This document shows, one piece after another, positions 28,787 to 61,961 of a DNA stretch of 64,000 bases. The notes beneath the pieces were generated by a model. It saw nothing but the letters and a program-made list of their open reading frames with translations, did no database searches and was not told the DNA's origin. This DNA comes from Paratinospora sagittata (Eukaryota > Streptophyta > Magnoliopsida > Ranunculales > Menispermaceae). A program made the translations under genes and the position numbers. The stretch covers positions 17,314,288 through 17,378,287 of the forward strand of contig CM069605.1 of assembly GCA_035771175.1 (NCBI GenBank), in the 5' to 3' direction. The stretch's first letter is position 1. Each line of letters begins with the position of its first letter.

Positions 28787-30736
28787 TGTCACACCCCGTG
28801 CTTTTAATCAATATATTTAGTTGATTTATACGTACACTGAAGAGTATAATATACGTATAAGTACCTTTAAAGTCATGTGTACATGTGTCAAATGAACTTG
28901 AAAATGTCAAAAGTGAGTCCAGAATGTGATTTTAAATAGAAATCGATTTACAACACGTGTATGTCTCATGTGGATTGAGTGTATAGAAGAAGAAAAAGAG
29001 GAATGAAGTAAGAAAAAATAAAATAAAAAATAAATTACTGTTTATTTGCGGGGGGTACTGTTCACGAAACAGTACTCGTATGGAATAAAAAAAAAGTTGC
29101 TGGAGAGAAAGAGAAATGATAGATAGAAGAAGGGAAACGACAGATTCGCGGCCAAATATGACGTGTCGGTAAGTTATTTTTGCTATTTTTCGTCGTGAAA
29201 TTGATTTTTAACTAGTGTATGACGATTCTAGCGGAGTAATTTTAGCTATGAGAGTCGTTTTACGGCGTTTTTGAAATTGGGGTTTTGACCCAACTTGAAT
29301 GAAAAGTTGTTTGAAAGGTTGAAAAACGCTCCCTAGACTATAGAAGCCCCGAATATGTAGTTAGATTTCATTTGTAATTATTTGGAAATTTTATGTCTAT
29401 TGAAAGTTAGATGTGATATTTGAGACATTTCGAATCATATTAAAACCCGATGAAACTGCAGTTTAAGGCTATAGAATGGTAGAATGAACTGTTGTAAGTT
29501 CATCGATGCTAATTTCATGATTTTTGGAGACCGTTTGACAATTTTAGTAAAAATTCACATGTTTCTAATGAATAGTGATGTGAACAGCATCGTAAATAGT
29601 ACTGTGATTATATTCAGTGAATAAAATGGAATTGGACTCCAGTGAAACTCCGGTTTGAGATCATAGAATCGTAGAGAACTGAATTCCGGATGTTTCGATG
29701 TTAAGATCATGATTTTTGGCTATGCGTTGATATTTTTAGTAGCTAAATCTATGTTTTTTGTGAATAAAATTGACTTTGGATGCCTCCGCGAACATGTAAA
29801 ACCTCAATAAAATACTTGTTGAAGGTAGTAGAATGATAGAAAAACTGATTTTACACGTGTCGATATGAGCAGAATAATTTTAGGAATGTTCTATATTTTT
29901 AATAAAATTGACATATGTTTCCATATGCTTATGTGAGTACTTTGGTGTTGAAATCTAGTTTAAATGCTCTCGAGGAAGCAATTACGATGGACATTTGATG
30001 ATGCAAGTAATCTTGATGCTTTTTGTTGCTGGATTTTAGAGGGTATATTGGCTTAGAAATCTCATGTAACCACTGTGAGTATAGTTTTCTTGATTTGGTT
30101 CTTGTATGACATTGTATACATATAAAATGTTTGATTGTATGCATGCTACATTTATATGTAATCCATTGAGTTTTTATTGATCATGCAAACTAATTTTAGC
30201 AATTGAAGCTTATAATAATGTCATTTTGTTAGGAATTAGACCCGGATGAGGTTTTGCGAAACCTCATTGTCAGTAGGCCTGTCCTAACAAGGGTTGCGAT
30301 CCTTGAAATGACTGTGAATTGGGTAATGAGAGGTTGTGGCTACCTTATAACGGCCATACAAGAGTTAGACCCGCTCTCTTACCTTGAAGAAAGGAGATGG
30401 TAAATTTTTATGAAACTGTGCACTGGTTTATTGAATGAGCATAAACTATATATTAGGTGCATGTATAGTATTTTGATGAATGTTACATATGTGCTTTTAA
30501 ATATTTTAATTTAAACGATTTGATATGCCATGCTTCTCTAAATGCATGCGATTGTCATGTCAAGAGCTATATTCACTGAGATGTTGTTTGCTCACCCCAT
30601 TTCCCTCACCATTTCAAGTACATAAGCAAAAGGAAAAGGAAAAGGAAAAATTTGAGAGTGATCAGTACGTGATTAGGACATAACATTATTGATGTACGTA
30701 TGCTTTGGAAGAAGTGGTTACATGTTTTATATATTT

Positions 30737-30807
<71 letters not shown>

Positions 30808-31229
30808 TCACACATTATAAATGTATTACCATCTAAAGGGGTTATTTTGGAAAAATAAGATATCAATGGTTATTTTGGATTGTTAAGATATTTGGCGATG
30901 ACATATATACTTGGACAATGGAATGTTTGATTAATGAATGACAATGGTGGTATTTTGGATTATGGTATACATGGATGGAATGGTTACATATGATGACTGA
31001 ATGATTGACATTGTGAATATATATATACATATGATTTGATTTGTGGTATATCAGGTTTTGTGAAATGTCCATTTTAGAGGGAAATGCCGCCAAGATTTTT
31101 GAAAATTTTGGGAAGGATTGTGAGACTATGTGAAGGCTGACAGTATATTATCTACTGTATACAAGTATGTACAATGGATAGTATATTGTGCCGGTCATGA
31201 CGTCAAGCTATGTCAGGGGTGTCGTGACA
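28787..31229 (+). mobile_element. GypA 5' LTR
   Basis: 2443 bases, TGTCACACCCCGTGC ... GGTGTCGTGACA. It is clearly related to the solo LTR at 59817-62307 along its whole length (GTGCTTTTAATCAATATATTT at the start; AGGCCTGTCCTAACAAGG-TTG in the middle; GTGCCGGTC-TGACG near the end). It contains a (TA)n run of about 65 bases at 30739-30803. Followed at once by a tRNA-iMet primer-binding site, so it is the 5' LTR. Confidence 0.88.
30739..30803. repeat. (TA)n microsatellite
   Basis: About 32 uninterrupted TA dinucleotides inside the GypA 5' LTR. The related solo LTR has a shorter run at about 61934-61962. Confidence 0.95.
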
Positions 31230-31233
31230 ATAT

Positions 31234-31245
31234 TGGTATCAGAGC
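31234..31245 (+). other. GypA primer-binding site (tRNA-iMet)
   Basis: TGGTATCAGAGC, a perfect match to the complement of the plant initiator-Met tRNA 3' end, four bases after the LTR terminus. Confidence 0.92.
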
Positions 31246-31380
31246 CAGGTTTAGGATTAAAAGCCTAAAAGATTAAAAGCTTTATTATCTTATGTTTGTT
31301 GGATGGGTATATGTACGGGTAAATAAAGTATCGTATAAAGAATTAATCAAATTGTTTGACGTATATGCTCCTCTATCTCT

Positions 31381-32556
31381 GTGAATGACATATTGAAAGG
31401 GAAGTATCAGGCAATCATGGACTCACAAGAAGAAAGGTTAAAGAAACTGGAAGAAATGGTTGCAACTCAGCAGAGACAAAATGCTGAGATGATGTGTATG
31501 ATGACACGTCTTCAGGATAGTTTACAAGGGCCTACAACACCTGTGGTACCTGAGGTTGGCGCCAGTAGTGCGGGTGCGTCTGCAGAGCGACCTGTGCCAG
31601 TGCAGGAGATAGTAAAAACTCATGATAATGTAGATGAGACCCACAGATACGAAGATGTGATGAAAGCATTTAAGAGACGTGAACCGCCTTGATGGCAGTC
31701 TAGAGTTAGAGGTTGCTGAGGACTGACTTCTGCGGATAGAAGCTATATTTGAGGACATTCATGCACTAGATAGGGACAAGATTAGACTTGCTCGATTTAA
31801 ACTTTCGAGTAAGGTTGAGAGATGGTGGCAGACAATAGGCCGAGCTCAGGGACCCATAAATACCTAGGATAAGTTTAAAGAAGTATTCTACAAGACTTAC
31901 TATCCCCCGTCTGAGGTTGATAAGAGGCATAAGCAATTTATAAAATTGAAGCAAGGGAACATGTCTGTGAGAGAATATGAACATGAGTTCAATAGGTTAG
32001 CCTTGTTTGCCTCTGAGATGGTTCAGACAGATCTGCTACGAATAAAGAGGCTCAGGGATGGATTTAATGACCCGATCAAGAAGGGTTTGGCTCTTGCTGG
32101 TGTTCAGGCCTATGATCAAGTAGTGCGACAGGCACTGGAATATGAGGCAGTTGAGATGACAGATAGGCCATCACGGGTAACGCCCCTAGCACAGGCAGCT
32201 ATAGAGCAGCAGGTACCCTATCAGGGTAAGAGAAAGCAGAGATGGGGCCGAAAATGGTGGGTGAACAGAAAAAGACAAAGATAGCTAACATGCCTACTAC
32301 TATGGAGATTCCAGTTACTCCTCCAGCAGCAGCGCTACCACCACCAGTAGGAAGAGGATCACAGTCTGCTATGAGGCCACCGACACATAAATCGTCTATT
32401 AGGGCACCGTGGCCGCATAAAGGAGCAGGCAGCCGGAGTGGTTGGCTTCCCATGCCAGGCACTGAGTCGCAGACAGCTTCATCAGCACCTCGCCCTCCTA
32501 TCACATGTTTTCGATGTGGGACCAAGGGACATAAGGCGTACCAGTGTCCTTTTTAG
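31381..32556 (+). pseudogene. GypA gag, broken
   Basis: 31381-31692 gives the N-terminal coiled-coil part (QEERLKKLEEMVATQQRQ). The next stretch has a short deletion and stops (GAC-TGA where Trp is expected, about 31720; ACC-TAG where Trp is expected, about 31866). The frame resumes at 31946 with KQGNMSVREYEHEFNRLALF, the capsid-like region. 32242-32556 is Pro/Ala-rich and ends in an intact CCHC zinc knuckle, CFRCGTKGHKAYQC (32506-32547), just before a TAG. Full-length gag cannot be made. Confidence 0.88.
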
Positions 32557-32692
32557 CCAGCTCCGCGGACTCTAACAAATCCATTTGCTACTGTTACTGT
32601 TCCTACACCTGTCAGAGAGCAAGCCAGGGCTGTTACGGAGCTAGATCCAGAGGCGAACAAGAACTTGGTGGAAGGTATGATTTTCATTTTCA

Positions 32693-34366
32693 TTGGGTAT
32701 GGATTGGTTTGCTGCCTATCATGCCCATGTGGACTGCTTTGGTAAGAAAGTAGTCTTTCAAATACCAGGACAACCCGCATTTGTTTATAGTGGCAAGACG
32801 TCTTCAAACCCTCCCACTCGAGGCAGGATGGCCACTAATGAAGAGATAGGGATGTTGGCTAGTATAAAGCCAGTAAATGAAAAGGATTTAGGCGTTCAGA
32901 TATTAGATATTCCTGTAGTATGTGAGTACCCAAATGTTTTTCCAGATGATTTACCAGGATTACCACCAGTACGGGAAATTGATTTTATTATTGAACTGAT
33001 GCCTGATACAAAACCTATTTCCATTCCACCCTATCGAATGGCGCCAAAGGAGTTACAGGAACTCAAGGTGCAATTAGAGGAGTTAATGGCAAAAGGGTTT
33101 ATTACCCCGAGTATGTCACCCTGGGGTGCACCTGTACTGTTTGTGAAGAAGAAGGATGACAGCTTGAGGTTATGCATTGATTATAGACAGCTGAAGAGGG
33201 TGACAGTGAAAAATAAGTATCATTTACCCCGTATCGATGATTTATTCGATCAGTTGAATGGTGCTAAATTTTTCTCAAAGATTGATTTAAGATCTGGATA
33301 CCATCAGCTAAGAATACGGGAAGAGGAAGTACCAAAGACTGCGTTTAGAACACGGTATGGTCACTGTGAGTTTCTTGTTATGCCCTTTGGACTAACCAAT
33401 GCCCCAACCATGTTGATGGATTTGATGCAAAGGGTATTCAGACCATATCTGGATATACTGTTTATTGATGATATACTCATTTATTCCAAGACTCAGGAGG
33501 ATCATGATCAGCACCTCCGCATCACTTTGCAGACACTAAGAGAGCATCGGTTGTATGCTAAATTCAGTAAATGCGAGTTTTGAATACATGAGGTGAGATT
33601 TCTAGGTCATGTGGTTAGCGCAGAAGGAATTTCTGTTGATTCTGCTAAGGTTGAGGCAATCATAACTTGGCCAAGACCAACCACAGTGACTGAGATCCGC
33701 TGTTTTCTGGGTTTCGCTGGTTATTACCGGAGATTTGTGGAAGGCTTTTCCCGATTGGCTTCCCCACTCACAAGGCTGACTCAGAAAAATGTGCCATTTG
33801 TGTTGGCGTCTGCATGTGAGGATGCTTTCACTGAGTTGAAGAAGAACTTAACTACTACTTCAGTTTTAGTACTCTCAGAACCTGGAAAGGAGTTGGTGAT
33901 TTACACAGATGCATCACATTTAGGTTTAGGATGTGTATTGATGTAAGAGGGTAGAGTGATTGCTTATGCATCCAGACAACTGAAGATACATGAGAAGAAC
34001 TACCCTGTGCATGATTTAGAACTAGCAGTTGTTGTATTTGCGTTGAAATTGTGGAGACATTACCTCTATGGGGAAAAGTTCACACTGTACTCAGACCATA
34101 AGAGTCTGAAATATTTGTTTGACTAGAAAGAGTTAAATATGAGACAACGTAGATGGTTGGAATTCCTAAAAGATTATGATTTCACATTAGAATATTATCC
34201 TGGAAAAGCCAACGTCGTAGCTGATGCATTGAGCCAAAAACGAGTTGAGACCCAGGTGCTAGCTTGTCAGATGGCCCAGGAGTGGCGACTTTTAGAGAAA
34301 GCGACTATGATGAGTGTGCTCTCCATGGCTCCACACGTTGACATTTGTGCTCAGATGTATATATAG
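32693..34366 (+). pseudogene. GypA protease remnant, reverse transcriptase and RNase H
   Basis: [14 protein letters not shown] (from 32693) is the last piece of the protease; its D-S/T-G-A half is deleted. RT follows in one 296-codon frame to 33583: [44 protein letters not shown] and the intact catalytic FIDDILIYS (a few residues are missing just before it). 33593-33946 holds [26 protein letters not shown] and the RNase H start ([16 protein letters not shown]); 33947-34366 holds the rest ([19 protein letters not shown] region, ADALSQKR). Stops at 33581-33583 (Trp expected), 33944-33946, 34124-34126 and about 34364 (Gln expected) interrupt it. Confidence 0.9.
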
Positions 34367-34928
34367 TTGACAGATTCTTATATTCAAAAGATTAAGGATA
34401 TGCAGCAGCATGATCCTGATCTTGGTATGTATGAGTCTTGGACAGATAGTGCAGACAAGGCAGATTGGCAGAGAGGTCTAGATGGTGTCCTGCATTATCA
34501 GGGGAGATTATGGGTACCTGTGGATAGGGCATTGAGGGCTGAGTTATTAGAGAAAGCACACAGATCTCAGTATACCATTCACCCAGGGTCTACAAAAATG
34601 TATCATGATATGAAGAGAACGTTATGGTGCATGGGATGAAGAAAGATATAGCTGAGTATGTGCGGAATTGTGAGGTGTGTTAGCAAGTGAAAGCTGAACA
34701 TCAGAGACCAGGAGGTCAGATGCAACCATTATCTATTCCAGAATGGAAATGGGAGCATATCACGATGGACTTTATCACAGGACTGCCCAGATCTCAGGGT
34801 AGATTTGATGTCATTTGGGTGATAGTTGACAGATTGACTAAATCTGCACACTTTCTTTCAATGAACACCAGAGACTTGATTGATAGACTGAGCAGATTGT
34901 ATGTGCAGGAGATTGTCAGGTTGCATGG
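34367..34928 (+). pseudogene. GypA integrase, part before GypB insertion
   Basis: Zinc-binding region with AHRSQYTIHPGSTKMYHDMKR (spacing of the HHCC domain), a frame slip near 34625, CEVC then a TAG at 34681-34683 where the family has Gln (C-QQ-VKAEHQRP), and the core start WEHITMDFITGLPRS and WVIVDRLTKSAHF with the first catalytic Asp. Coding is cut at 34928, inside IVRLHG, by GypB. It resumes at 45602. Confidence 0.9.
34924..34928. other. Target-site duplication CATGG, left copy
   Basis: CATGG directly before the GypB terminus; the second copy is 45602-45606. Rejoining the two restores the GypA integrase reading LHGI-VSIVLDRDPQF. Confidence 0.95.
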
Positions 34929-35650
34929 TGTGGCGACCCCGCGCCCCGGACCACCAACCCCGCAGGGAATGGCATGCGGAATGCCGGAGCGGGACGCCCG
35001 GCGTAGGCATCTCCGACCACTCCTCAACTCCCGTGAGGTGGTTGAGACCCTACAAGCCTTATCCCAAACAACAATATGATATCAAAAGGTATTAAACAAA
35101 ACTACCCACCGTATTAATCATCCAAGACAAGAGATAATCCATAAAAAAATGAACCATAAATAATAATCATAATCCCTACAGTCCATTAAAATTGACATAC
35201 TCATAAAGTCCAAAATTGTGGGTACAAATAAAACCGTCATATGCCCACATAGTCTATCTAACAAGTCCCAACTCACCCATACTACAATGTGGTAAGTGTT
35301 ATAATTACATAATCCAAAATATAGTACTTCATAATTTAAACACAATTCAATCAAAATGCCTCTCAACTCACATCGAGGCCTTGGATTCTCTCGCAGGCAA
35401 GGCCCTCAAGATATGACTACTCCTTTGCCCTTATTCGGGACAGAAGGACCTGAAAGAGGAAAATGAGGGTGAGCCAACGATGCCCAGTGAATAGAATTCA
35501 AATATGCTATCAATACTCATCAATAAAAACCATGTATGCATGTCAATGTGTAGCATGATTAAAAGCTCATAACATATAGATATCAAGCATTTATAATAGG
35601 TTCGATGCAAGTAAAAGTTTATCAATTTGGATCCACATTCCACATGCCTT

Positions 35651-35815
35651 GGGTTACTAGTACACGTCTATTTCACCGTGCCGTTGATCCCAATCATGTT
35701 TATTTGGGTTACTAGTACACGTCTATTTCACCGTGCCGTTGATCCCAATCATTTTTATTTGGGTTACTAGTACACGTCTATTTCACCGTGCCGTTGATCC
35801 TAATCATTTCCTTTC
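35651..35815. repeat. 55-bp tandem repeat ×3 in GypB LTR
   Basis: Units start at 35651, 35706 and 35761: GGGTTACTAGTACACGTC, then ACCGTGCCGTTGATCC. The other LTR has the same array from 43199. Confidence 0.95.
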
Positions 35816-37429
35816 CTAAAACCCTCTTATGACAAGGTTAAGTCCCCCTATTAGCCAGATAGATGGGTCCAACCAAAGTCATAAGGTTTTCTCAAATCAA
35901 TGCATCATTCAAAACATTAGAACACATTCATGCTTTCAAGATACAATATATATAAGTGATATGATGACATAAAAGATATAATCATAAATGAAGTCTACTC
36001 ACAACCAAGCCTCGCGAGAGTATTTAACCACACACGACCTCCAAACCGAATCAACCCAATCAAGATCCTGAAACATTCATCAATGTCCTACCATACGTCA
36101 ATTTCTATGCTCAATCACATAGACATTACACATCAACCCTAAATCATCTCACATATAGACAATAGGCCTAAATCTCATCTAATCCCATCATTCAACTCAA
36201 ATCACATGACTTAGGCCTCTAATGCATAGTTCTCATTCATAAACCATTCTATTAATCAAAAGATACTGATTTTCAATTCCTTAGGCATAAACATGCCCAA
36301 ATTGGGTCACTTAATCACAAATAGGCCTAACCCATGATATGGTCACAACCACCAAATCAGTAGCATAATCAACCCTAATCATGCTTAATTAAACATAAGT
36401 TGCATCAATTCAATGATTCTAGGCCAAAAGCATCAAAAGCCCTAAAATATGAAATTTTCCATACTTAGGCCATATTGTCGATTTACACTAGGTCACCATG
36501 TTCAGCCATGTATATTACTGATTTTGCATCATGGTTTCATCAACAATGGCAACTAGGTCAACATAGTTGACATGCAAGCTATTTGGAAATGTCTAAGATC
36601 ATATTCTAAATTTAGGTCCAATACAAGCACCTTACCAATTCTTCATTTAATATTCTGTTAAGATGTATTAATCTACCAATAGAAATGTGTAATCACAAAA
36701 TCAACCGTACAGATTGAAGTATGTGAAGAAACAAACCTTCTGTCCAAATATCAGCCCAATCCAACGGTGGACCGAAACGATATGTATCTTTTATGAACAA
36801 GTGTCTAATCAGACAGTTTCTCCTTTCCTGCTGCAAATACCCGAAATCAAATGGCTATATCACACAAACTACTAATTGTATAAACATCTCCACCGTTCAG
36901 AATACATAAATTTCTGTTATACACTACATACCAAAATTTTATATCCATCCAACGGTATATTGAGGAGATATACAAGTTTGACCGAAACGGCATGAGAAAC
37001 CCAGAAATTCCGACCAGCTTCGTTTGAGAGATTATATCTCTTAGAAAAAGCCTTTAATTACGATCTCCACCGTTCAGATTGTAGAAATATCAGTTTTAAA
37101 CGACATACCCAAATTTGGTAGCCATCTAACGGTAGATTTAGTAGATCTATAAGTTTGACCGAAACGGTGCGAGAAATCTAGACTTTCCGACCAGCTTTGT
37201 TTGAGAGGTTAGATCTCTTAGACGAAACCTCTGATCAAGATCTCCACCGACCAGAATGAAGAACCATAAGCTACGAACGTGCTGATAAAATTTGAGCTCA
37301 ATCTGACCGTATATTCCAAAGATCCACCTCTTTGATGGAAACGTCGCAGGGATCTTCCTCCTGCAACTCTCTCCTTCCTTCTCTTCTTCTTTCCTTTCTC
37401 TTCTTTTCTTTCTCTTCTTCTTTCCTTTC

Positions 37430-37628
37430 TCTCCACTCACCTCTTTCTAGCACTTCCTTGATTCCCTCCTCCACTCACCTCATTTTCTAGAAAATTCTTG
37501 GATTCTCTCCTCCACTCACCTCATTTTCTAGCACATTCTTGGATTCTCTCATCCACTCACCTCATTTGCTAGCACATTCTTGGATTCTCTCCTCCACTCA
37601 CCTCATTTGCTAGCACATTCTTGGATTC
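37430..37628. repeat. ~42-bp tandem repeat in GypB LTR
   Basis: About five units of TCCACTCACCTCATTT, TAGCACATTCTTGG, ATTCTCTCC. Repeated in the other LTR at about 44978-45176. It follows a polypyrimidine stretch. Confidence 0.9.
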
Positions 37629-38053
37629 TAGAAGTGAGCATGGGACACTTGTCCATTTTCATGCACCAACCTTCACATGTGTTGGTCTCATACTACCCAT
37701 ACCAACCACATGTATTTTAACCAATCTCATGCTTCCATGTATTTTAAATGTTCAATCCATTTAATACACCAAATTTTCATTCTCATTTATCCTTTTATTC
37801 AATCAATCCTAACCCATATCAATTCATGGTTTAATGAGCCCATGCATAAATCATAACATATGCATTATACTTTAATTTAACATGACTCATATACAATTTA
37901 TGATACATATATTTATATACATTATCAAGCATCAACTATACAAACATTAAACAATCATCAAACAAACACCAAACATATCAAGACAACACATAGAGTTTGG
38001 GCAAAAATGCAATTAGGTTATGGGCTAGATGAAATAATTTTCGGGGCGTCACA

Positions 38054-38066
38054 TCACACCCACCTT
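38054..38066 (-). other. GypB polypurine tract
   Basis: The minus strand reads AAGGTGGGTGTGA directly before the 3' LTR start TGTGACGCC. Purine-rich and correctly placed for plus-strand DNA priming. Confidence 0.7.
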
Positions 38067-38096
38067 AGAATGAACTTCGTCCTCGAAGTTTTAAGG

Positions 38097-39209
38097 TTAA
38101 GAATTTCCTAAGCCCATGAACTCGGCAAAGTGCTCCATCATGTAGTCCTCACGCTCCCAAGTAACCTGTTCCTCGCCATGGAACTGCCATCTCACCTTAA
38201 CCATCGGAATTTCACGGTTACGTAACCTCTGGACCTTCCGATCAAGTATCTGAATAGGTTCCTCATCATAAGTCTCATCCTGCCTCAGTTCAATGTTCCT
38301 CCAGTCCAAAACGTGATCAAAATCACTCTTGTACACTCTCAACATTGACACGTGAAAGACATTGTGGACTGCTGCTAACTGAGGTGGCAAGGCTAATCGG
38401 TAAGCGGCGGGGCCAATTCGTTCTAAAACCTCGAACGGCCCAATAAATCTAGGAGCGAGCTTGCCTTTTATCCCAAATCTAGTTTGGCCCTTCTGAGGTG
38501 AGACCTTCAATAAAACTTGGTCACCCACCTCGAACTCTACGGTTTTCCGCTTGGCATCAGTGTAACTCTTCTGCCTGTCTTGGGTTACCTTCATATTATG
38601 CTTGATCCTCTTAATCTTCTCTGTGTGTTCTTGTACAAACTCTGGTCCCATCACCGTAACATCCCCTACCTCCGTCCAACAGATCGGAGATCTACAGGGT
38701 CGACCATACAATGCCTCAAAAGGAGCCATGCCAATACTGGACTGATAGCTGTTGTTGTACGCGAACTCACACAGATGTATGTACTCCTCCCAGTTACCAC
38801 TGGACTCAAGGACACAAGCTCGAAGCATATCCTCTAAAATCGATATCAACCTCTCAGACTGGCCATCCGTCTGCAGGTGAAAAGCGGTACTGAGATCTAG
38901 TCTAGTGCCGAGCTGCCTCTGCAACCCCTGCCAGAATACCGATGTAAACCTCGGATCCCTATCTGACACAATCAAAACTGGCACTCCATGTAATCTGACT
39001 ATCTCCCGCATATAGAGTCTGCTCAGCTTGCCCATAGAATCCCTAGTGTTCACCGGTAGAAAGTGAGCGGACTTGGTCAAGCGATCAATAATAACCCAAA
39101 CAGCATTATGTCTCCTCGGGAAGGAATGTACTGATAAACTGTTCAAAAGTCCTGATAAACTGTTCAAACATACTGATAAACTGTTCAAAAGTACTGATAA
39201 ACTGTTCAA
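38097..39209 (-). CDS. GypB integrase core and C-terminal domain (N-terminally truncated)
   Basis: An open minus-strand frame of 370 codons. The first ~30 residues are translated from the 21-bp tandem repeats (LNSLSV-like units) and are not integrase. The true core starts at about residue 33: NAVWVIIDRLTKSAHF (first Asp), IVSDRDPRFTSVFWQ (second Asp), TDGQSERLISILEDML (Glu), so the DDE residues are present. Then AYNNSYQSSIGMAPFEALYG, VGDQVLLKVSPQKGQ, VFHVSMLRVYK and a chromodomain-like end (PIQILDRKVQRL, EQVTWERED). The HHCC zinc domain and everything upstream in pol are missing, replaced by the captured gene. The usual FHPQTDGQ reads FHLQTDGQ. Unlikely to integrate alone. Confidence 0.9.
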   Translation of the reverse strand: MNSLSVLLNSLSVCLNSLSGLLNSLSVHSFPRRHNAVWVIIDRLTKSAHFLPVNTRDSMGKLSRLYMREIVRLHGVPVLIVSDRDPRFTSVFWQGLQRQLGTRLDLSTAFHLQTDGQSERLISILEDMLRACVLESSGNWEEYIHLCEFAYNNSYQSSIGMAPFEALYGRPCRSPICWTEVGDVTVMGPEFVQEHTEKIKRIKHNMKVTQDRQKSYTDAKRKTVEFEVGDQVLLKVSPQKGQTRFGIKGKLAPRFIGPFEVLERIGPAAYRLALPPQLAAVHNVFHVSMLRVYKSDFDHVLDWRNIELRQDETYDEEPIQILDRKVQRLRNREIPMVKVRWQFHGEEQVTWEREDYMMEHFAEFMGLGNS

Positions 39210-39215
39210 ACATAC
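39128..39215. repeat. 21-bp tandem repeat ×4 at integrase/RKD junction
   Basis: Four units of about 21 bases around GTACTGATAAACTGTTCAAA, at the joint between the truncated integrase and the captured gene's 3' flank. The core GATAAACTGTT occurs once more at 39577, just after the captured gene's stop codon. Confidence 0.92.
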
Positions 39216-39584
39216 TAATAGGAATAGGCCCTTTTACTAAAGGAAAATGGAGAATTTCAATATGAAGACATCTGATATTCGGTCTATTGTTAATTTAAGA
39301 CAAACTGTTATCAGTTGCTCCACATCATAAACTTAAGTCCCCTACTTTTAATTTAGGTATAGAAGTGTAGTAACACATTGATCATCTGACATGATATGCA
39401 ACCTTCATGATTGGCCATCATTTTAGGGTTTAGGGGACTTGATAAATTTAGTTACTCTAGCATCTACTCATAAAACAGCTTAATTAGTATCTCTTAAGAC
39501 CAATGATCACAAGATCTACTTAAGTTGACACTTTATTCAGCCAAGTTTGTGAAAATCACTACTCACTTCATACATGATAAACTG
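39216..39584 (-). other. 3' flank of captured RWP-RK gene
   Basis: Non-coding, AT-rich, unlike gypsy sequence; presumably 3' UTR and downstream DNA brought along with the captured gene. No ORF supported. Confidence 0.5.
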
Positions 39585-41141
39585 TTAATTTAAACGAGAA
39601 ATAGCAACTGGGTGCCACTCTAGCGTCATGTCTTTTCTTTTCTTGCCGTTGGTTTCCTTTCTTTTCATGCAGTTGGCCTTGAACCAAGCCTGCCTTAGTT
39701 TCTTTGTTTTCTCCTGAAGATGCACCTCTGGCATCTCTTCCATCAACTTCCTTTCTTCTTCCAATAAACTCAAAGCATCTTTTATCTTCATATCTCCACC
39801 AAGCCTTTCTCCTTCCCCCATTTCCTGCAGTACATAATTAATTAACAAGTAATTATCTTACTCAGAACATCCCCAAGTTGAGATATCAAAATACTTATAC
39901 AGATCAATATATAATGGTGATAAATACCTCAACATTTGCCATAACGGTCTGCAAGGTCATCACCTTTCTCTGAGTCCATTTCCTTTGTTCCTTCAATAAA
40001 CTCAACCTGTCTCTTATCTTCATATCTCTACTAACCCCTTCTCCTTCCCCCATTTCCTGCAGTGCATTTCTGTGACGCCATTTCCTTTGTTCCTCCAATA
40101 ACCTCAACGCTTCTCTTATCTTCATATCTCCACAAACACCTTCTCCTTCCACCAATTCCTGAATATTTTTTATAACGACCTGCAAGCTCATCAACTTTCT
40201 GTAAGGCCATCTAGGGATGCCCAATTCCCTGCACCTCTTCTTCAGCTGCGTTAAGCCCACCTTAAGTTCTTTTGCAGCTTCTGATATGCTCATGTAGAAG
40301 TAGCGTGAGAGGTTCGTGCGTGATAGAGTCTTCACCCTCTTCAGTTTCGTCATCGATTCCTCATGATCACTACCAGTACCACTAATACTCCTACTGCAGC
40401 AGCTAATCATCCCCTCTCCCTTTTCATTCATCCCAATTTGTTGTTTCTCCCCTTCTAATCCAATTCTCATTTGATTCAAACCTCCAAAGTCCACATGATT
40501 AGTACCAGTACTACTCATCCCCTCTCCATTTTCATGCATCACAATCTGTTGTTTCTCCGCTTCTAATTCCAATAGCAAATTAATCAACACAACGAGGATG
40601 AAATTGCCAATCTGTTAATAATAAAGTACAATCTAAAGTGGATTGAGCATTGATACTCACCTTCAAGTTCATTAAGTTGGCTTGGAAAGTCATCTTCATC
40701 CATTGAAGAATTCATGAAGGGTGGTACCACTGCCTCGCGTAAGCCATATTCTAGAAGAGGCTCCCACGTATACGGGCTGCTACCAAAACTTGAACAGCTG
40801 AAATCAAGTGGGTGGAATTGGTTTGAGAAGAGAAATGGGTCTTCTCCAATATCCACCATGTCTCTGTTAGCTGTGAAGTTCATCATCGTCATCAGTGACC
40901 ACAAAATCACAATAAAAAAAAAAAAAACAGCATAATTGGGAGATTTCTCTTAAAAGCCAAACCAGAACGTTAAAAAGAAATTACAAAAAAACAAAATAAA
41001 AAAGAAAGAGGTGAGGAACTGACGCCATGGTGGAGGGCTGGTAATGCAGTAAGAAATGTCGGGCAGCTGCTCCTTCGTCGGATGTGGCTGCAACTCATCC
41101 TGTTTCGGCGCCGGAGCTGCTCCTCCTTCTCCTCCTGCCAT
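39585..41141 (-). CDS. RWP-RK domain transcription factor (RKD-type), captured in GypB
   Basis: Four exons on the minus strand: 41141-41024, 40870-40661, 40562-39928, 39824-39585; all introns GT-AG (153, 98 and 103 bases), phases matching. Together 1203 bases, one open frame of 400 residues plus stop. Exon 3 carries the RWP-RK domain: SRTNLSRYFYMSISEAAKEL, VGLTQLKKRCRELGI, PRWPYRKLMSLQ, so the RWPxRK signature is intact. A coiled-coil module (GDMKIREALRLLEE) is present three times, the third running into the RKD-type C-terminal EKTKKLRQAWFKANCMKRK. RKD proteins are nuclear DNA-binding regulators of egg-cell and embryo identity; a citrus member is linked to nucellar embryony. The gene is in the same direction as the retrotransposon and takes the place of PR-RT-RH. 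Longer than most RKDs because of the triplication. No inactivating change seen; expression cannot be judged from sequence. Confidence 0.88.
39731..40162 (-). repeat. Internal triplication in the captured RWP-RK gene
   Basis: Three similar coding modules of about 85-100 bases: 40162-40080, about 40063-39978 (exon 3) and about 39830-39731 (exon 4). Each encodes E-GEG-DMKI-(ALRLLEE)-RK. The second begins with CTGCAGGAAATGGGGG, the same sequence as the intron 3 acceptor and exon 4 start (39830-39815), so it looks like a copy of exon 4 fused into exon 3 with a piece of intron end. Confidence 0.8.
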
Positions 41142-41302
41142 AATATTTCTTCTCTTCTTTCTCTCTTCCTTTACTATCTTCTCCTTTTAATGCCCAGAAA
41201 ATCTCAGCCTCCAACAAACTCAATCACCAACTCCACCACCCCTAGAAAACCAGACTAGCAGTAGTATAACTCACACAAACGAACTGACAAGCGTGTTGAA
41301 GA
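41142..41302 (-). promoter_or_regulatory. 5' UTR / proximal promoter region of captured gene
   Basis: On the minus strand a purine-rich leader (AAAGGAAGAGAGAAAGAAG) precedes the ATG at 41141. An AT-rich GCATTAAAAGG about 60 bases upstream could be a weak TATA box. Only about 160 bases separate the gene from the 58-bp repeats, so little native promoter was brought along and LTR-driven transcription is possible. Inference. Confidence 0.35.
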
Positions 41303-41534
41303 ACCGACAAGCATGCGGCTGAACAGGAGAGCGTGCGGCTCAAGAATGGCGTGCGATGAAACCGACAAGCATGCGGCTGAACAGGAGAGCGTGCGGCTCA
41401 AGAATGGCGTGCGATGAAACCGACAAGCATGCGGCTGAACAGGAGAGCGTGCGGCTCAAGAATGGCGTGCGATGAAACCGACAAGCATGCGGCTGAACAG
41501 GAGAGCGTGCGGCTCAAGAATGGCGTGCGATGAA
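41303..41534. repeat. 58-bp tandem repeat ×4 at gag/RKD junction
   Basis: Four almost identical 58-base units starting at 41303, 41361, 41419 and 41477. Each unit is itself three ~19-base subrepeats ending GCATGCGGCTGAA, GCGTGCGGCTCAA and GCGTGCGATGAA. It lies exactly between the truncated gag and the 5' flank of the captured gene. Confidence 0.95.
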
Positions 41535-41581
41535 CCGGCTGACTGCAGGAGTGCAGATGCATAGGAACTTCGACAGGCTTG

Positions 41582-42322
41582 CTAACCAATAGTAACTCCG
41601 ACTCCAAAGTCAACAAGTGCTGGCTGCAGGTGTGACAGGCGTGCTGGAGCTGCCCGTGTAGACATACCATCAACCCGCTCAGCCAACTTGTATTGTTTGG
41701 CCCTCTGGACCACTGTGGTAAAATCAGTCATCTTCGTCACAGACAAGGCCTGTCGGATCGCGGGCCTTAGGTTTAAAGAAAACCTCATAATCTTGTCACT
41801 CGGCGTCTGAACTAACCCAGGGGCATAAACTGCGAGCTGCCTAAATCTGAGCTCGTACTCCCTGACTAACATGGTGCCCTATGCGAGATTCAAAAACTCG
41901 AGTTGCTTAGCCTGTCTCTCAGTCTCTGGAACGTAAGCCTGTAAGAACAACCGTCTGAAGGTGTCCCAACTCTTCACTGTCCCCTGTGTATCCAACACTG
42001 AAAGCCACCAGTCCTCTGCATCACTCTCCAGTGTGTGAGCAGCACATAGAACCAGAGACTCCTCATCAAGCTCTAAGAAGCGACTGATTTTCTCGACATT
42101 CTTCAGCCAATCTTCGGCCTTCTTCAAGTCAACCCCACCAGTGAATTCCTTAGGCTTTAACTTCATGAACTTCTCTAGCAATCTGATCCGTTGATCAGTG
42201 GGGTTCTCCACATCAATAGGAGCAGGTGTAGGCATAGGCTGAGGTACAGCCATTTGAGGTCCTCCTGCCCCTGCAGCTCCACTAGCCTCGGCCCCACTAG
42301 TGCCCGCCTCATAACTACCCAT
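41582..42322 (-). pseudogene. GypB gag, C-terminally truncated
   Basis: The likely start is the Met at 42322 (MGSYEAGTSGAEASG); the open frame begins earlier at 42391 but without family resemblance. It has the plant gypsy gag domain: ENPTDQRIRLLEKFMKLKPK, EFTGGVDLKKAEDWLKNVEK, DAEDWWLSVLDTQGTVKSW and YVPETERQAKQLEFLNLA. A TAG at about 41879-41881 stands where relatives have Gln (-QGTMLVREYE). The frame then continues open as MLVREYELRFRQLAVYAPGL to 41582. The zinc knuckle and the rest are missing. A single CAG-to-TAG change explains the stop; readthrough would give a capsid-like protein. Confidence 0.88.
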
Positions 42323-42463
42323 ATCATATAATACACACAGAAAATATGATAGTAAGGCTTTTAAATTAGTTCCTTTAAGCTTTTTAATCACCTAAATCTC
42401 TCACCCAATTCCTAGGTTAAAGTCATCTAAGTCCAATACATAGACCAAACCTAGTAAAATCAG

Positions 42464-42475
42464 GCTCTGATACCA
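42464..42475 (-). other. GypB primer-binding site (tRNA-iMet)
   Basis: Minus strand TGGTATCAGAGC, a perfect match, two bases inside the 5' LTR end at 42478. Intact, so the element's transcript could be primed. Confidence 0.93.
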
Positions 42476-42477
42476 AC

Positions 42478-45400
42478 TGTGGCGACCCCGCGCCCCGGAC
42501 CACCAACCCCGCAGGGAATGGCATGCGGAATGCCGGAGCGGGACGCCCGGCGTAGGCATCTCCGACCACTCCTCAACTCCCGTGAGGTGGTTGAGACCCT
42601 ACAAGCCTTATCCCAAACAACAATATGATATCAAAAGGTATTAAACAAAACTACCCACCGTATTAATCATCCAAGACAAGAGATAATCCATAAAAAAATG
42701 AACCATAAATAATAATCATAATCCCTACAGTCCATTAAAATTGACATACTCATAAAGTCCAAAATTGTGGGTACAAATAAAACCGTCATATGCCCACATA
42801 GTCTATCTAACAAGTCCCAACTCACCCATACTACAATGTGGTAAGTGTTATAATTACATAATCCAAAATATAGTACTTCATAATTTAAACACAATTCAAT
42901 CAAAATGCCTCTCAACTCACATCGAGGCCTTGGATTCTCTCGCAGGCAAGGCCCTCAAGATATGACTACTCCTTTGCCCTTATTCGGGACAGAAGGACCT
43001 GAAAGAGGAAAATGAGGGTGAGCCAACGATGCCCAGTGAATAGAATTCAAATATGCTATCAATACTCATCAATAAAAACCATGTATGCATGTCAATGTGT
43101 AGCATGATTAAAAGCTCATAACATATAGATATCAAGCATTTATAATAGGTTCGAGCAAGTAAAAGTTTATCAATTTGGATCCACATTCCACATGCCTTGG
43201 GTTACTAGTACACGTCTATTTCACCGTGCCGTTGATCCCAATCATGTTTATTTGGGTTACTAGTACACGTCTATTTCACCGTGCCGTTGATCCCAATCAT
43301 TTTTATTTGGGTTACTAGTACACGTCTATTTCACCGTGCCGTTGATCCTAATCATTTCCTTTCCTAAAACCCTCTTATGACAAGGTTAAGTCCCCCTATT
43401 AGCCAGATAGATGGGTCCAACCAAAGTCATAAGGTTTTCTCAAATCAATGCATCATTCAAAACATTAGAACACATTCATGCTTTCAAGATACAATATATA
43501 TAAGTGATATGATGACATAAAAGATATAATCATAAATGAAGTCTACTCACAACCAAGCCTCGCGAGAGTATTTAACCACACACGACCTCCAAACCGAATC
43601 AACCCAATCAAGATCCTGAAACATTCATCAATGTCCTACCATACGTCAATTTCTATGCTCAATCACATAGACATTACACATCAACCCTAAATCATCTCAC
43701 ATATAGACAATAGGCCTAAATCTCATCTAATCCCATCATTCAACTCAAATCACATGACTTAGGCCTCTAATGCATAGTTCTCATTCATAAACCATTCTAT
43801 TAATCAAAAGATACTGATTTTCAATTCCTTAGGCATAAACATGCCCAAATTGGGTCACTTAATCACAAATAGGCCTAACCCATGATATGGTCACAACCAC
43901 CAAATCAGTAGCATAATCAACCCTAATCATGCTTAATTAAACATAAGTTGCATCAATTCAATGATTCTAGGCCAAAAGCATCAAAAGCCCTAAAATATGA
44001 AATTTTCCATACTTAGGCCATATTGTCGATTTACACTAGGTCACCATGTTCAGCCATGTATATTACTGATTTTGCATCATGGTTTCATCAACAATGGCAA
44101 CTAGGTCAACATAGTTGACATGCAAGCTATTTGGAAATGTCTAAGATCATATTCTAAATTTAGGTCCAATACAAGCACCTTACCAATTCTTCATTTAATA
44201 TTCTGTTAAGATGTATTAATCTACCAATAGAAATGTGTAATCACAAAATCAACCGTACAGATTGAAGTATGTGAAGAAACAAACCTTCTGTCCAAATATC
44301 AGCCCAATCCAACGGTGGACCGAAACGATATGTATCTTTTATGAACAAGTGTCTAATCAGACAGTTTCTCCTTTCCTGCTGCAAATACCCGAAATCAAAT
44401 GGCTATATCACACAAACTACTAATTGTATAAACATCTCCACCGTTCAGAATACATAAATTTCTGTTATACACTACATACCAAAATTTTATATCCATCCAA
44501 CGGTATATTGAGGAGATATACAAGTTTGACCGAAACGGCATGAGAAACCCAGAAATTCCGACCAGCTTCGTTTGAGAGATTATATCTCTTAGAAAAAGCC
44601 TTTAATTACGATCTCCACCGTTCAGATTGTAGAAATATCAGTTTTAAACGACATACCCAAATTTGGTAGCCATCTAACGGTAGATTTAGTAGATCTATAA
44701 GTTTGACCGAAACGGTGCGAGAAATCTAGACTTTCCGACCAGCTTTGTTTGAGAGGTTAGATCTCTTAGACGAAACCTCTGATCAAGATCTCCACCGACC
44801 AGAATGAAGAACCATAAGCTACGAACGTGCTGATAAAATTTGAGCTCAATCTGACCGTATATTCCAAAGATCCACCTCTTTGATGGAAACGTCGCAGGGA
44901 TCTTCCTCCTGCAACTCTCTCCTTCCTTCTCTTCTTCTTTCCTTTCTCTTCTTTTCTTTCTCTTCTTCTTTCCTTTCTCTCCACTCACCTCTTTCTAGCA
45001 CTTCCTTGATTCCCTCCTCCACTCACCTCATTTTCTAGAAAATTCTTGGATTCTCTCCTCCACTCACCTCATTTTCTAGCACATTCTTGGATTCTCTCAT
45101 CCACTCACCTCATTTGCTAGCACATTCTTGGATTCTCTCCTCCACTCACCTCATTTGCTAGCACATTCTTGGATTCTAGAAGTGAGCATGGGACACTTGT
45201 CCATTTTCATGCACCAACCTTCACATGTGTTGGTCTCATACTACCCATACCAACCACATGTATTTTAACCAATCTCATGCTTCCATGTATTTTAAATGTT
45301 CAATCCATTTAATACACCAAATTTTCATTCTCATTTATCCTTTTATTCAATCAATCCTAACCCATATCAATTCATGGTTTAATGAGCCCATGCATAAATC

Positions 45401-45601
45401 ATAACATATGCATTATACTTTAATTTAACATGACTCATATACAATTTATGATACATATATTTATATACATTATCAAGCATCAACTATACAAACATTAAAC
45501 AATCATCAAACAAACACCAAACATATCAAGACAACACATAGAGTTTGGGCAAAAATGCAATTAGGTTATGGGCTAGATGAAATAATTTTCGGGGCGTCAC
45601 A
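42478..45601 (-). mobile_element. GypB 5' LTR
   Basis: 3124 bases, the same as the 3' LTR apart from a missing base near 43154 in the lines compared. It contains the same 55-bp and ~42-bp repeat arrays. The element's transcript would start in this LTR and run to the left. Confidence 0.95.
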
Positions 45602-46483
45602 CATGGTATACATGTTTCTATTGTGTTGGATAGAGATCCACAGTTCATATTGAGCTTTTGGCAGACCATGCAGACCCTGTTTGGTACTCATCTCCGTTTT
45701 AGTACAACGTTTCATCCTCAGACTGATGGCCAGACTGAGAGGGTGATTCAGATGCTGCAAGACATGCTCAGATCGTGTATTTTAGAGTTTGGTAGGACTT
45801 GGAGTGAAAGTTTACCATTGTGTGAGTTTGCTTATAACAACAACTATCAGGCCGGTATTGGCATGGCACTTTATGAAGCTTTGTATTGTAGGCTGTGCAG
45901 ATCTCCGACTTGCTGGTACGAGGTTGGGGAATCATAGTTGTTGGGACCGAAAGTTGTTATTGATCACACTGAGCAGGTTAAGCAGATCAGACAGAGACTG
46001 AAAGCTGCCCAAGACCGACAGAAGAGTTATTTTGATAACCGCCACAGACCTCTAAAGTTTGCAGTAAATGACCTCGTGCTGCTTAAGGTCTCACCACAGA
46101 AAGGTCAGATGCGGTTTGGGGTGAAAGAAAAATTGTCTCCTCGCTTTGTTGGACCGTTTAAAGTCACAGAGAGGATTGGTCCGTTAGCATACCGGATTGC
46201 TTTGCCTCCTCAGTTAGTCGATGTTCATGATGTGTTTCATATTTCTATGTTGAGGAAGTATCATACAGACCTAACGAAATATCCACCCTCGACACATCTT
46301 TTAGATGTAGCACAGTTACAAGTTGGGGAGGATGCTACATATGAAGAGAAACCCATTCAGATTCTTGACAGGAAGGTTCAGCAATTGAGAAATAAAGAAA
46401 TTCCTTTGGTCAGAGTCAAATGGCAGTTTCATGATAATGAGGAGCAGACTTGGGAATGCGAAATCAACCTATATGAGGTTTGA
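45602..46483 (+). pseudogene. GypA integrase, part after GypB insertion
   Basis: Continues the integrase cut at 34928: VLDRDPQFILSFWQTMQ (second Asp), FHPQTDGQTERVIQMLQDML (Glu), AYNNNYQAGIGMALYEALY. A TAG at 45935-45937 stands where Gln fits (GES-LLGPKVV). Then LAYRIALPPQ, VHDVFHISMLRKY, KPIQILDRKVQQL and EEQTWECE. The last residues (INLYEV) do not match the usual chromodomain-like ending, so the natural C-terminus appears replaced at about 46465. Confidence 0.9.
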
Positions 46484-48240: not shown

Positions 48241-49975
48241 GAAGAAGATCTTGAGGAAATAGAGTTTCAACAAAAAGAACTTGATGGTCTGTCCCCAGAT
48301 AATGAACAGCTTAAGAAGGCTATTGAGAAACTGAAAAATGAAATTCTTAGTAAGGAAAAGGAAGACCTAAATTGCACTATGATCAAGTTTACAAATAATC
48401 AAAAGTTATTTGACATGATGTTAGGATCACAAAGATATGCATTTGACAAAGCTGGCTTAGGTTATACACACGGGTCAAAGCAAAAAGAATATAACACTTT
48501 ATTGACCAAAAGATCGAAATGTTGTAAGTGTCATAGGGAAGGTTATACAATGCTTAGATCTAATGCTTTAAATGGAAATAAAAAAAATATGCATGGATTA
48601 AAAAGATTGTTCTTCTTGATGCTAACATGCATGGACCCAAAGTAGCATCAGTACCAAAGTCAAAAGTTTTTTATGTTGTGTAGGTGAGCAAAAATGAAGA
48701 ACTATGGTATCTAGACAACGACTACTTAAGGCATATGACTGGAGATAAATCCAAATTTTTGAGTCTTGAAAAGAAGAAAGGAGGAAAGGTCACTTTCGGA
48801 GACGACAAAAAAAGTGATATTGAAGGCATCAGAATCATTGGTAACGATTTTTTATTCATATCTGATGTACTTTATGCCAAAGGGCTAAAGCATAATCTCT
48901 TGAGTATAAGTCAATTATGTGACAAGGGTTATGATATTTCATTTGAAGCAAATAGGTGCATTGTTAAACATATAGATAAAACTGTTGCATTTATGGCACC
49001 TAGACATAATAATGTCTATTGTACAAGTCTTAATGACATGGAGAAACAAAACATAACATGTTTAAGTGCTATTTCATGTGATGATGCATGGCTTTGGCGT
49101 AGGAAACTTGCTCATGTTAGTATGGATAACATATCTAGAATTGTAAAGTATGATCTTGCCAAGGGTATTCCAAAGGGAATCTACTCAAAAGACAAGGTAT
49201 GTGAACCGTGTCAACTTGGTAAGCATACCCGATCATCATTTAAGAGCAAGAGGCATCAATCTAGTTCTAGAGCTCTCGAACTGATTCACATGAATCTTTT
49301 CGCACCAACCAAAATCCAAAACTTAGGTGGTAAATCTTATGTATTTGTGATTGTTGTTGACTTTATTAGATTTACTTGGGTATTTCTATTAGCTTATAAA
49401 TCTGATGCATGCGAACTATTAATAAAATTCTGTAAAAGAGTTGAAAATGAAAATGATCATAAAATCAACATAATTAGAAGTGATATAGGAGGTGAATTTG
49501 TTAATAAAATCTTGAAAAATTCTGCAATAATCAAGGTTACACTCACCATCTCTCGGCCCCTAGGACACTACAACAAAATGGTATAATTGAGAAGAAAAAT
49601 AGGACTTTGCAAGAAATGCGTAGAACTATGCTTATTGAGTATAATACTGCAAACCATTTTCGGGGAGAGGCTATTAACACAACTTGCAATGTAATGAACA
49701 AAATCCTAATTAGAAAAGACTTGAATAAAACTCCATATGAACTATGGAAAGGTAGATCACCCAACATCAGTTATTTTTTAGTATTTGGATGTAAGTGTTT
49801 TATCTTAAATGATAAAGACAACTTAGACAAGTTTGAACCTAAATTTGATATAGAAATATTTTTAGGATATTCTTCTCACAGTAGAGCCTATAGAGTTTTC
49901 AATAAATCAAATCAAACTATAGAAGAATCAATTCATGTAAATTTTGATGAAAGTGAAAGTAAAAAAAAATCTTGA
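48240..49975 (+). pseudogene. Copia gag (end), protease and integrase
   Basis: 48240-48645: gag coiled coil (EFQQKELDGLSPDNEQLKKA) and a partial zinc-knuckle region. 48684-49586: protease start WYLDNDYLRHMTG, where the family has WYLDSGCSRHMTG, so the catalytic DSG is damaged. Then HNLLSISQLCDKG, the integrase zinc region (LWRRKLAHVSMDN, CEPCQLGKH), and the core start LELIHMNLFAPT, where the first catalytic Asp of LLHMDLFGP is Asn. IIRSDIGGEF keeps the second Asp. 49607-49975 continues in another frame (MLIEYNTANHFRGEAINT, FGCKCFILNDKD, FLGYSSHSRAYRVFN). Inactive by several independent changes. Confidence 0.9.
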
Positions 49976-50047
49976 GAATGAATTTAACAATTAAACTTTG
50001 ATGATGATGATCTCAAGACAACTAAGATCATAGATCTTGAGACTGAA

Positions 50048-51591
50048 ATGACTTTAGAAACATCTAAAAACTCTAGACTGCTTCAAGGTCTATCCAAAGA
50101 TCAAATATCAGAAGATTCGCAAAAGGGTGTATCCACTAGAGCTTCAATTCAAAGAGATCAAAAGTTTGTTGCTTTTGTATCGCAATTTGTACCAATTAAA
50201 GTCAAAGATACACCGAAAGATGAAAACTGGATTATTGCTATGCAGGAAGAGCTAGGACACTTTGTGCGAAACAAAGTATGAGAATTAGTTCCTAGACCAG
50301 TTCATCAATTAGTTATAGGAACCAAATGGATCTTTAGAAACGAAAAGAATGAACAAGGTACCATTGTCTGAAATAAGGCTAGATTGGTTGCACAAGGGTA
50401 CATACAAGAAAAATGCATAGACTTTGAAGAAGTCTTTGCCCCAGTAGCAAGATTAGAGGCAATAAGGATGCTACTTGCCTATACTTGTTACAAGGATTTT
50501 CCCTTATACCAAATGGATGTAAAGAGTGCATTTCTAAATGGATACATCAATGAAGAGGTATATGTGGAACAACCTTTAGGGTTTGAAGATGCTCAAGACC
50601 CATATTATGTGTTCAAACTCCACAAAGCCGTATATGGATTAAGATAAGCTCCAAGAGCTTGGTATGATCGACCGAGTTCGTTTGTTTTAGATCATAAGAT
50701 TTAGAAAGGAAAGCTTGATCCAATTTTGTTTATCAAACACCATAATGATAATATGCTTATTGTTCAAATATATGTAAACGATATCATTTTTGGTGCATCA
50801 AACAAAAAGTTGTGTTATGAGTTTTCAAAACTAATGCAAAAGGAATTTGAAATGAGTATGATAGGAGAATTTACATACTTTCTCGGCTTGCAAATTAAGC
50901 AAATGCCAAAAGACACCTTCATAAGCCAATCAAAGTATGCTAAGGAAATGGTTAAAAAGTTTCAAATGAATAATTTGAAATCAATTGATACTTCCTGTAA
51001 CTCTGCAATTAAATTAGATAAGGATGAAGAGGGAAACCAATTGATTCTAAACTTTATAGAAGTATGATTGGAAGTCTATTATACCTAACAACAAGTAGAC
51101 CTAACATTATGTTCAGTGTCTGTCTTTGTGCAAGATTTCAATCAAAATCTAAAGAATCTCACTTAAAATGTGTCAAATGAATATTTAGATACATCAATGG
51201 CACAACAAACTTAATAATTTGGTATTCCAAAGGTACTTCAGTTGATATGAAAAGTTATGTAGACTCTGACTATGCCGGTAGTCTAATTGATCGAAAAAGT
51301 ACCTCCGAAATTTGTCACTTTCTTGGAAATTCTTTAATTTCTTGGTTTTGCAAGAAGCAACACTTAGTGGCATTATCCACAGCTGAAGCAAAATATGTTG
51401 TAGCTGGAAGTTGCTGTTCTCAGGTCTTGTACATGAAACAACAACTTCAAGATTATCAAATAGTTGTTAAATGTGCTGAAATTCTGTGTGACAATACAAG
51501 TGCTATTAACATATCCAAAAATCATGTATTGCACTCCCGAACTAAACATATTCAAATAAGACATCACTTCTTGCAGGATTGTGCAAAATGA
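50048..51591 (+). pseudogene. Copia reverse transcriptase and RNase H
   Basis: 50048-50281 is the linker and RT start (PKDENWIIAMQEEL). A break follows near 50280-50383. 50384-50647: [20 protein letters not shown] and [20 protein letters not shown]. 50726-51067: the catalytic box reads YVNDIIFGAS where the family has YVDDIIFG, so one catalytic Asp is Asn; then FTYFLGLQIKQ. 51247-51591: RNase H (DSDYAGSLIDRKSTSEICHFL, SWFCKKQHLVALSTAEAKYV, CDNTSAINISKNHVLHSRTKHI). Frames are broken between parts. Confidence 0.9.

Positions 51592-61930: not shown

Positions 61931-61961
<31 letters not shown>

Follow-up and report, generated by a model that had tools for sequence, protein, structure and literature searches.

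How has a gene for an RWP-RK transcription factor come to lie inside a long terminal repeat (LTR) retrotransposon, and has it moved with the element? The question is raised by a 64,000-nucleotide stretch of the genome of Paratinospora sagittata (Menispermaceae; GenBank assembly GCA_035771175.1, contig CM069605.1, positions 17,314,288 to 17,378,287; hereafter the window), in which positions 34929–45601, read on the minus strand, are occupied by a non-autonomous gypsy LTR retrotransposon that carries a gene of the RKD type. An earlier note on this DNA had proposed that an LTR retrotransposon captured the gene and can spread it, and the rest of the genome bears this out, with 40 scored copies of the gene and ten distinct exact target duplications. 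We consider it highly probable, from the sequences compared below, that a host RKD gene was captured, and that the resulting cassette has been mobilized in trans, has passed through RNA and has been exchanged between LTR families.

With the RKD gene as query, the plant's own genomic DNA (1.29 Gb in 4,049 contigs) yielded 707 first-look candidates, and the 40 copies that were scored have 95–100% identity over the gene. The boundary between intron 1 and exon 2 was matched at 263 places genome-wide (up to one mismatch), a figure that counts boundary matches, not individually checked copies, and the reversed-pattern control was matched at none; such high counts with zero controls exclude chance. 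The search list and the first 100 of the 263 boundary places together put the gene on 23 of the contigs C1–C25. Nineteen copies besides the window, chosen from the best-scoring 40, were read with both flanks, and one further copy (L049) as the gene only. From a C11 tandem array, two flanks (L031 and L032) were read as well but are excluded from the counts. The C11 array holds four copies spaced at 7,389 bp. Further tandem RKD copies lie on C8 (L015/L016), and at C4:9399353–9413154 three copies without intron 1 follow one another every 6,887 bp. A 58-bp tandem array upstream of the gene comprises one to five units depending on the copy (C8 shows four across two tandem elements), and its unit count is a possible marker of copy lineages.

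Insertion is recorded at the ends of the elements. Exact and mutually different 5-bp target duplications flank ten of the 13 copies, the window included, for which both LTR ends were read: eight were found by script (the window, C22, C2, C12a, C12c, B_C10, B_C7 and C_C15), and two had to be read by eye, in C21 and C25, whose 5' LTRs start with variable bases. Further copies of the arrangement gag, 58-bp repeat, RKD gene, integrase, with different target duplications, which the earlier note had named as the thing to look for, are thus present; the RKD segment did not prove to lie outside the LTRs, as in a misassembly, nor were target duplications missing everywhere. The two LTRs of a copy differ by 0–16 substitutions over 2.0–3.2 kb (11 pairs compared by script, and C21 with 15). 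At 1.3e-8 or 6.5e-9 substitutions per site per year, this corresponds to ages of up to about 0.2 or 0.41 million years, respectively. On these rates, none of the 12 datable insertions would be older than roughly 0.4 million years.

In the window element the LTRs start with TG, end with CA and measure 3,125 and 3,124 bp, with one single-base indel and no substitution between them, and the target duplication CATGG stands on both outer flanks. When one copy of CATGG is removed, the flanks form a single frame across the join, within the integrase of an older gypsy element. From the 5' LTR inwards follow the primer-site region, the start of gag, the 58-bp repeats, the four-exon RKD gene, 21-bp repeats, an integrase remnant and a purine-rich tract:

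34924..34928, no strand: target site duplication, left copy CATGG, from the flank sequence
34929..38053, minus: 3' LTR, from comparison with the other LTR
38054..38068, minus: purine-rich tract adjoining the 3' LTR, seen in the sequence, the likely polypurine tract
38097..39119, minus: integrase remnant, its N-terminal part missing and its C-terminal SH3-like domain kept, from the list of open reading frames (ORFs), Pfam and relatives
39129..39220, no strand: 21-bp tandem repeats at the RKD/integrase junction, from sequence repeats
39232..41839, minus: cassette (end of gag, 58-bp repeats, RKD gene and 3' flank) common to a copy with other LTRs, in three pieces 93–96% identical
39585..39824, minus: RKD exon 4 with the stop codon, the intron-3 border predicted and backed by the host-type gene L051
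39928..40562, minus: RKD exon 3 with the RWP-RK domain and tandemly repeated pieces, its start given by spliced copies
40661..40870, minus: RKD exon 2, from the gene model and spliced copies
41024..41141, minus: RKD exon 1 with the start codon, from the gene model and spliced copies
41302..41537, no strand: 58-bp tandem repeat array, its unit count differing among copies
41640..42322, minus: 5' part of gag with an in-frame stop at codon 148 (41879–41881), from Pfam and reading of the frame
42464..42477, minus: primer binding site region, GT followed by TGGTATCAGAGC, from the sequence after the 5' LTR; we take it to be an initiator-Met tRNA primer site
42478..45601, minus: 5' LTR, from comparison with the other LTR
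45602..45606, no strand: target site duplication, right copy CATGG, from the flank sequence

Three of the six minus-strand stretches submitted to Pfam gave a match, to the RWP-RK domain (PF02042, E 3.4e-22), a gag domain (PF03732) and the integrase SH3-like domain (PF24626); the other three gave none. The integrase label draws on the PF24626 match together with the database relatives of the piece, and the size of the integrase loss was estimated by eye with the outer gypsy element as reference. Inspection by eye of the ORF list for the 4.4-kb inside found no protease, reverse transcriptase, RNase H or complete integrase, in agreement with the loss of the first three that the earlier note had described. 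Its matching LTRs, perfect CATGG duplication and gag and integrase pieces are confirmed by the LTR comparison, the flanks and Pfam, and the sequence does contain the tandem repeats of 58 bp and 21 bp that it had placed at the two junctions. As to a Tekay/chromovirus placement, the integrase piece has no Pfam chromodomain, some of its relatives have PF00385, and there is no reverse transcriptase by which to place the element. Scanning the window for tRNA genes gave no hit.

The spliced model of the captured gene encodes 400 amino acids without a stop, with GT–AG borders at all three introns. It contains the RWP-RK domain and its best matches are RKD relatives, as expected of the RKD subfamily, and a four-exon RWP-RK gene (PF02042) does lie between gag and integrase as had been claimed. 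The signature RWPYRK, described before as intact, is non-standard: all 119 homologs with a comparable block, of 120 listed, have RWPHRK. A second change, YMSI in place of YMPI, likewise affects a residue invariant in 119 of 119 homologs. Both changes are found in the window gene and the type C genes compared (type C copies are described below), whereas the host-type genes L051 and L050 retain the invariant residues; all five captured copies set out in a further comparison have the change. Relative to ten homologs, the protein has some 80 extra residues after the RWP-RK domain, whose source is tandem repeats. In L051 exon 3 ends in NNVQ and intron 3 follows; in the captured gene the NNVQ exon-3/exon-4 junction occurs once exactly closed and then, past the repeated piece, again with an intron. 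The captured gene is, as its sequence reads, a mosaic of spliced and unspliced pieces. A search of the PDB found nothing.

The same cassette stands between two kinds of LTR. Of the 19 copies read, 15 have the window-type LTR on at least one side and four, termed type C, have another; three of these four have both LTRs, which are about 2.0–2.3 kb long and 98.4–100% alike within a copy. We considered whether type C belongs to the LTR family of the window, and this is ruled out, since similarity between the LTRs of types A and C is confined to short stretches of at most 58 bp and does not extend over their length. Window positions 39232–41839, including a piece of window-family gag, are nevertheless common to the type C copy C_C15. 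Because the cassette in type C holds this gag piece, the window-type family was probably joined first and type C later.

Copies also differ in their introns. The spliced junction of exons 1 and 2 is present at 39 places (38 exact, one with a mismatch) and that of exons 2 and 3 at two (exact pattern), each with a reversed-pattern control of zero. Direct reading showed that intron 1 is missing to the base in L052, and that introns 1 and 2 are exactly missing and intron 3 is kept in L055, whose two main pieces match the window gene at 99.5–99.9% identity. In two further spliced copies read with their 5' flank (L053 and L054), the upstream sequence is a type-C-like stretch carrying the same gag piece. 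The exact joins in genomic copies show that spliced RNA served as the template for sequence now in the genome, and they also confirm the predicted borders of introns 1 and 2. We conclude from these joins that the captured gene has passed through RNA.

Passage through RNA could nonetheless have come only later, with amplification, the RKD segment having first entered at the DNA level by break repair or ectopic recombination. The number of boundary places with intron 1 present (263, against 39 spliced) fits such an entry, as does the inclusion, judged by eye, of sequence beyond a poly(A)-like signal. The captured gene itself speaks against it: one exon-3/exon-4 junction is closed exactly at the host-type splice point while another keeps its intron, and the closed junction points to RNA templates. 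The tandem repeats at both junctions would also fit slippage by reverse transcriptase. We regard entry as DNA as possible but rather unlikely, and favour capture from RNA.

The likely source of the gene lies in the plant's own lineage. Its best protein matches are RKDs of Stephania, Coptis and Thalictrum at 35–47% (best 120 of 558). The earlier note had pointed to a citrus RKD gene; no Citrus protein is among those 120, and a 47-row tree joins the captured gene to L051 as its sister (SH-aLRT 92) and then places it near Stephania. Of the genes read, the one closest to the captured group without belonging to it is L051, a host-type gene at C12:32.647 Mb, with a DNA identity of 78–84%, a silent divergence of about 0.07–0.11 and a ratio of replacement to silent rates (dN/dS) of 0.7 to 1.3; two host-type RKDs compared with each other give a dN/dS of 0.95 over exon 3. 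Host-type relatives of the captured RKD gene are thus present in this genome, where the earlier note had advised looking for a donor. A Stephania RKD query of this genome, in which 132 of 1,742 candidates were scored, gave 137 matches. Host-type genes form large tandem arrays at C1:3.34–3.44 Mb, at C14:9.20–9.33 and 11.75–11.78 Mb, and on C1851, C2748, C2386 and C1553, with units mostly 2–6 kb apart, and these account for about 120 of 137 matches of the Stephania query (counted by eye). The last four contigs, which are small, could be unplaced parts of the C1 and C14 arrays, and L050 is one array unit.

How such an element moves is suggested by its gag gene. Wherever both neighbours are present, copies of types A and B have the order gag, RKD, integrase, with no room for pol; the incomplete copies are A_C1, in which gag has no match, and the truncated A_C5 and B_C12b. 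The stop at gag codon 148 is common to four of the ten type-A copies that cover this position (the window, C25, C22 and C21). A stop at codon 23 is found in C8, and the remaining five have none, C5 among them with its gag start missing. Since the four copies with the shared stop have different duplications, they are separate insertions, which used proteins from elsewhere. The junction of the family's LTR with the primer site is found at 1,427 places genome-wide (up to two mismatches). When the 53 exact junctions listed on C1 and C2 were compared by eye with the exact RKD boundaries listed, only that at C2:47702949 had such a boundary following it, at a distance of about 1.6 kb. From these counts, RKD carriers seem to make up the smaller part of a larger LTR family.

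The history that we propose starts from what is seen in the genome: the structure of the element, young insertions flanked by duplications, a high copy number, introns lost to the base, a single cassette found within both LTR types, host-type RKD genes and a gag stop shared by four separate insertions. A gypsy LTR retrotransposon would have taken up a host RKD gene, presumably by template switching, and would have lost most of pol, whichever of these came first. Its RNA would be packaged, copied and integrated by proteins that a further, putative element supplies, so that the RKD block, introns included, would travel as a mobile cassette. Splicing before copying would at times have taken out intron 1, either alone or together with intron 2, and the cassette would have crossed between element families, most likely by template switching between co-packaged RNAs. 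Most copies would be passengers without a selected function.

Several observations weigh against this history. No complete partner element is among the copies read, and the element is known here from genomic sequence alone. The sample is skewed to young and well-kept copies because the 19 were drawn from the best-scoring 40, and seven of the 19 were read without both LTR ends. Three of the 13 with both ends have no exact duplication (C24 matches at four of five positions, and C_C3 and C_C10b show no match). At least one of the 263 boundary matches is a host-type gene (C12:32646576, beside L051). Spliced exon-3/exon-4 junctions, which would mark the loss of intron 3, were found at no place genome-wide (up to one mismatch; control zero). 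L053 and L054 are placed by their 5' flank, and L051 was read over 1.1 kb.

Is the cargo itself selected? RWP-RK genes have been tied to egg-cell identity and embryo formation (PMC10709545), and RKD protein made from the copies in egg cells or early embryos might raise expression of the element or the number of cells in which insertions are heritable. Of 21 copies, 19 keep an open frame, of 400 codons in 17 of them, 392 in another and 323 in L049, a rate inflated by taking copies from the best-scoring matches; a single stop interrupts each of A_C12a and C_C3. All copies but L049, whose intron 3 lies inside a deletion, have their splice dinucleotides intact (20 of the 21), both exonic length changes among the copies are in frame, and the cassette has been kept in two LTR types. 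L049 (C22:34127800–34130000) is 95% identical to the window gene and lacks internal repeat units and intron 3, leaving a 323-amino-acid frame.

These points in favour of selection are opposed by the pattern of variation. Across the 21 copies, 98 variants are replacement or stop (two stops) and 29 are silent, against a neutral expectation of 26.8% silent (omega about 1.2), and 124 of 1,203 exon columns vary as compared with 48 of 368 others. Pairwise ratios of 0.12 to 1.37, mostly 0.5 to 0.9 and uncorrected for transition bias, had suggested constraint by lying below one; a count weighted for transition bias did not back this. The excess of silent over replacement changes expected of a selected cargo was therefore not found in the 21 copies, whose variation fits neutrality. 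Moreover, the captured genes compared have altered two residues invariant in 119 of 119 homologs, and youth together with best-scoring sampling can account for the open frames. Selection of the cargo thus seems improbable to us. The further proposal of the earlier note, that an embryo regulator is re-dosed under LTR control, gains no support from this neutral-looking variation. Similarly doubtful, from the same sequences, is a mobile reproductive regulator, in which a divergent RKD made from copies in the female germ line or embryo would aid transmission and alter host dosage, the cassette being traded for its benefit to the carrier. We read the captured RKD as a passenger gene whose frame is still open because the gene is young. 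That the window holds a single copy would suit a rival reading in which a gene entered one element just once, or in which the assembly was misjoined; 40 scored copies on many contigs and ten different exact duplications refute it almost beyond doubt, barring an assembly that is wrong at every one of these sites.

The surroundings of the window element have a history of their own. The older gypsy element appears to comprise 31868–34928 and 45602–46480, with the RKD element inside its integrase, and likely LTR regions at about 28794–31312 and 59823–62307, which are 75–95% alike, in pieces, and about 76–89% alike to pieces of the type C LTR. On the plus strand, 48684–51588 holds ORF pieces of a copia-type polyprotein, judged from translation alone.

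Gene capture by plant LTR elements has been described in reviews and surveys (PMC13317346, PMC3726574, PMC7264820). Maize Bs1 and other gene-transducing plant LTR retrotransposons likewise hold host gene sequence inside an LTR element (PMC13317346, PMC3726574), but the segments in Bs1 are without full-length ORFs (PMC13317346), whereas here a complete intron-bearing gene occupies hundreds of sites and is found within two types of LTR. In a survey of rice and sorghum, captured genes were multiplied by retrotransposition, as here, although the worked examples are pairs of elements, unlike the hundreds of RKD sites (PMC3726574). LTR elements with additional ORFs also have an extra ORF inside (PMC7264820), at hundreds of sites in the present case. 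Rider, which moved the SUN gene in tomato, is similarly a retrotransposon that carried a host gene, in that case one transduced segment with a known effect, in contrast to a multi-copy cassette (PMC13317346). In citrus and mango, reproductive-type RWP-RK genes and inserted DNA again occur together; there, an insertion in the promoter raises expression of the resident gene, whereas here the gene is inside the element and the plant is of another lineage (PMC10709545, PMC6090715).

A screen of 121 angiosperm genomes found acquired domains in gypsy elements (PMC9289625). Among these, Phalaenopsis gypsy elements with an ORF for an AlkB m6A demethylase resemble the present case in being a gypsy lineage that acquired a host-like domain, there present in many consensus sequences; they were found via reverse transcriptase and their demethylase is active in vitro, whereas the elements here lack reverse transcriptase and have an intron-bearing RKD-type cargo known from sequence. 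LTR elements of Aegilops tauschii carry a B3 transcription-factor domain (PMC9289625), and a DNA-binding domain in such elements is therefore not new in itself. RWP-RK is not named in the text of the acquired-domain section of that paper. Our literature search, which covered few subscription papers and some of the rest at abstract level, found none that joins RWP-RK, LTR retrotransposon and gene capture, none that joins RKD with Menispermum or RWP-RK with retrogene, and no RKD/RWP-RK cassette in a retrotransposon. None of the passages compared describes hundreds of sites that hold a whole transcription-factor gene with its introns, frozen intron states among genomic copies, or a cassette common to unlike LTRs.

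The acquired-domain screen is anchored on reverse transcriptase (PMC9289625) and would by design miss elements that lack it. In P. sagittata, related host genes, cassette, intron states, LTR hosts and dated insertions stand side by side in one genome as a natural record of gene transduction by LTR retrotransposons, and because all stages are present together, the capture and trading of genes by plant retroelements becomes testable step by step. The multiplication of an RKD-type transcription-factor gene to hundreds of sites also bears on the dosage, silencing and annotation of reproductive regulators.

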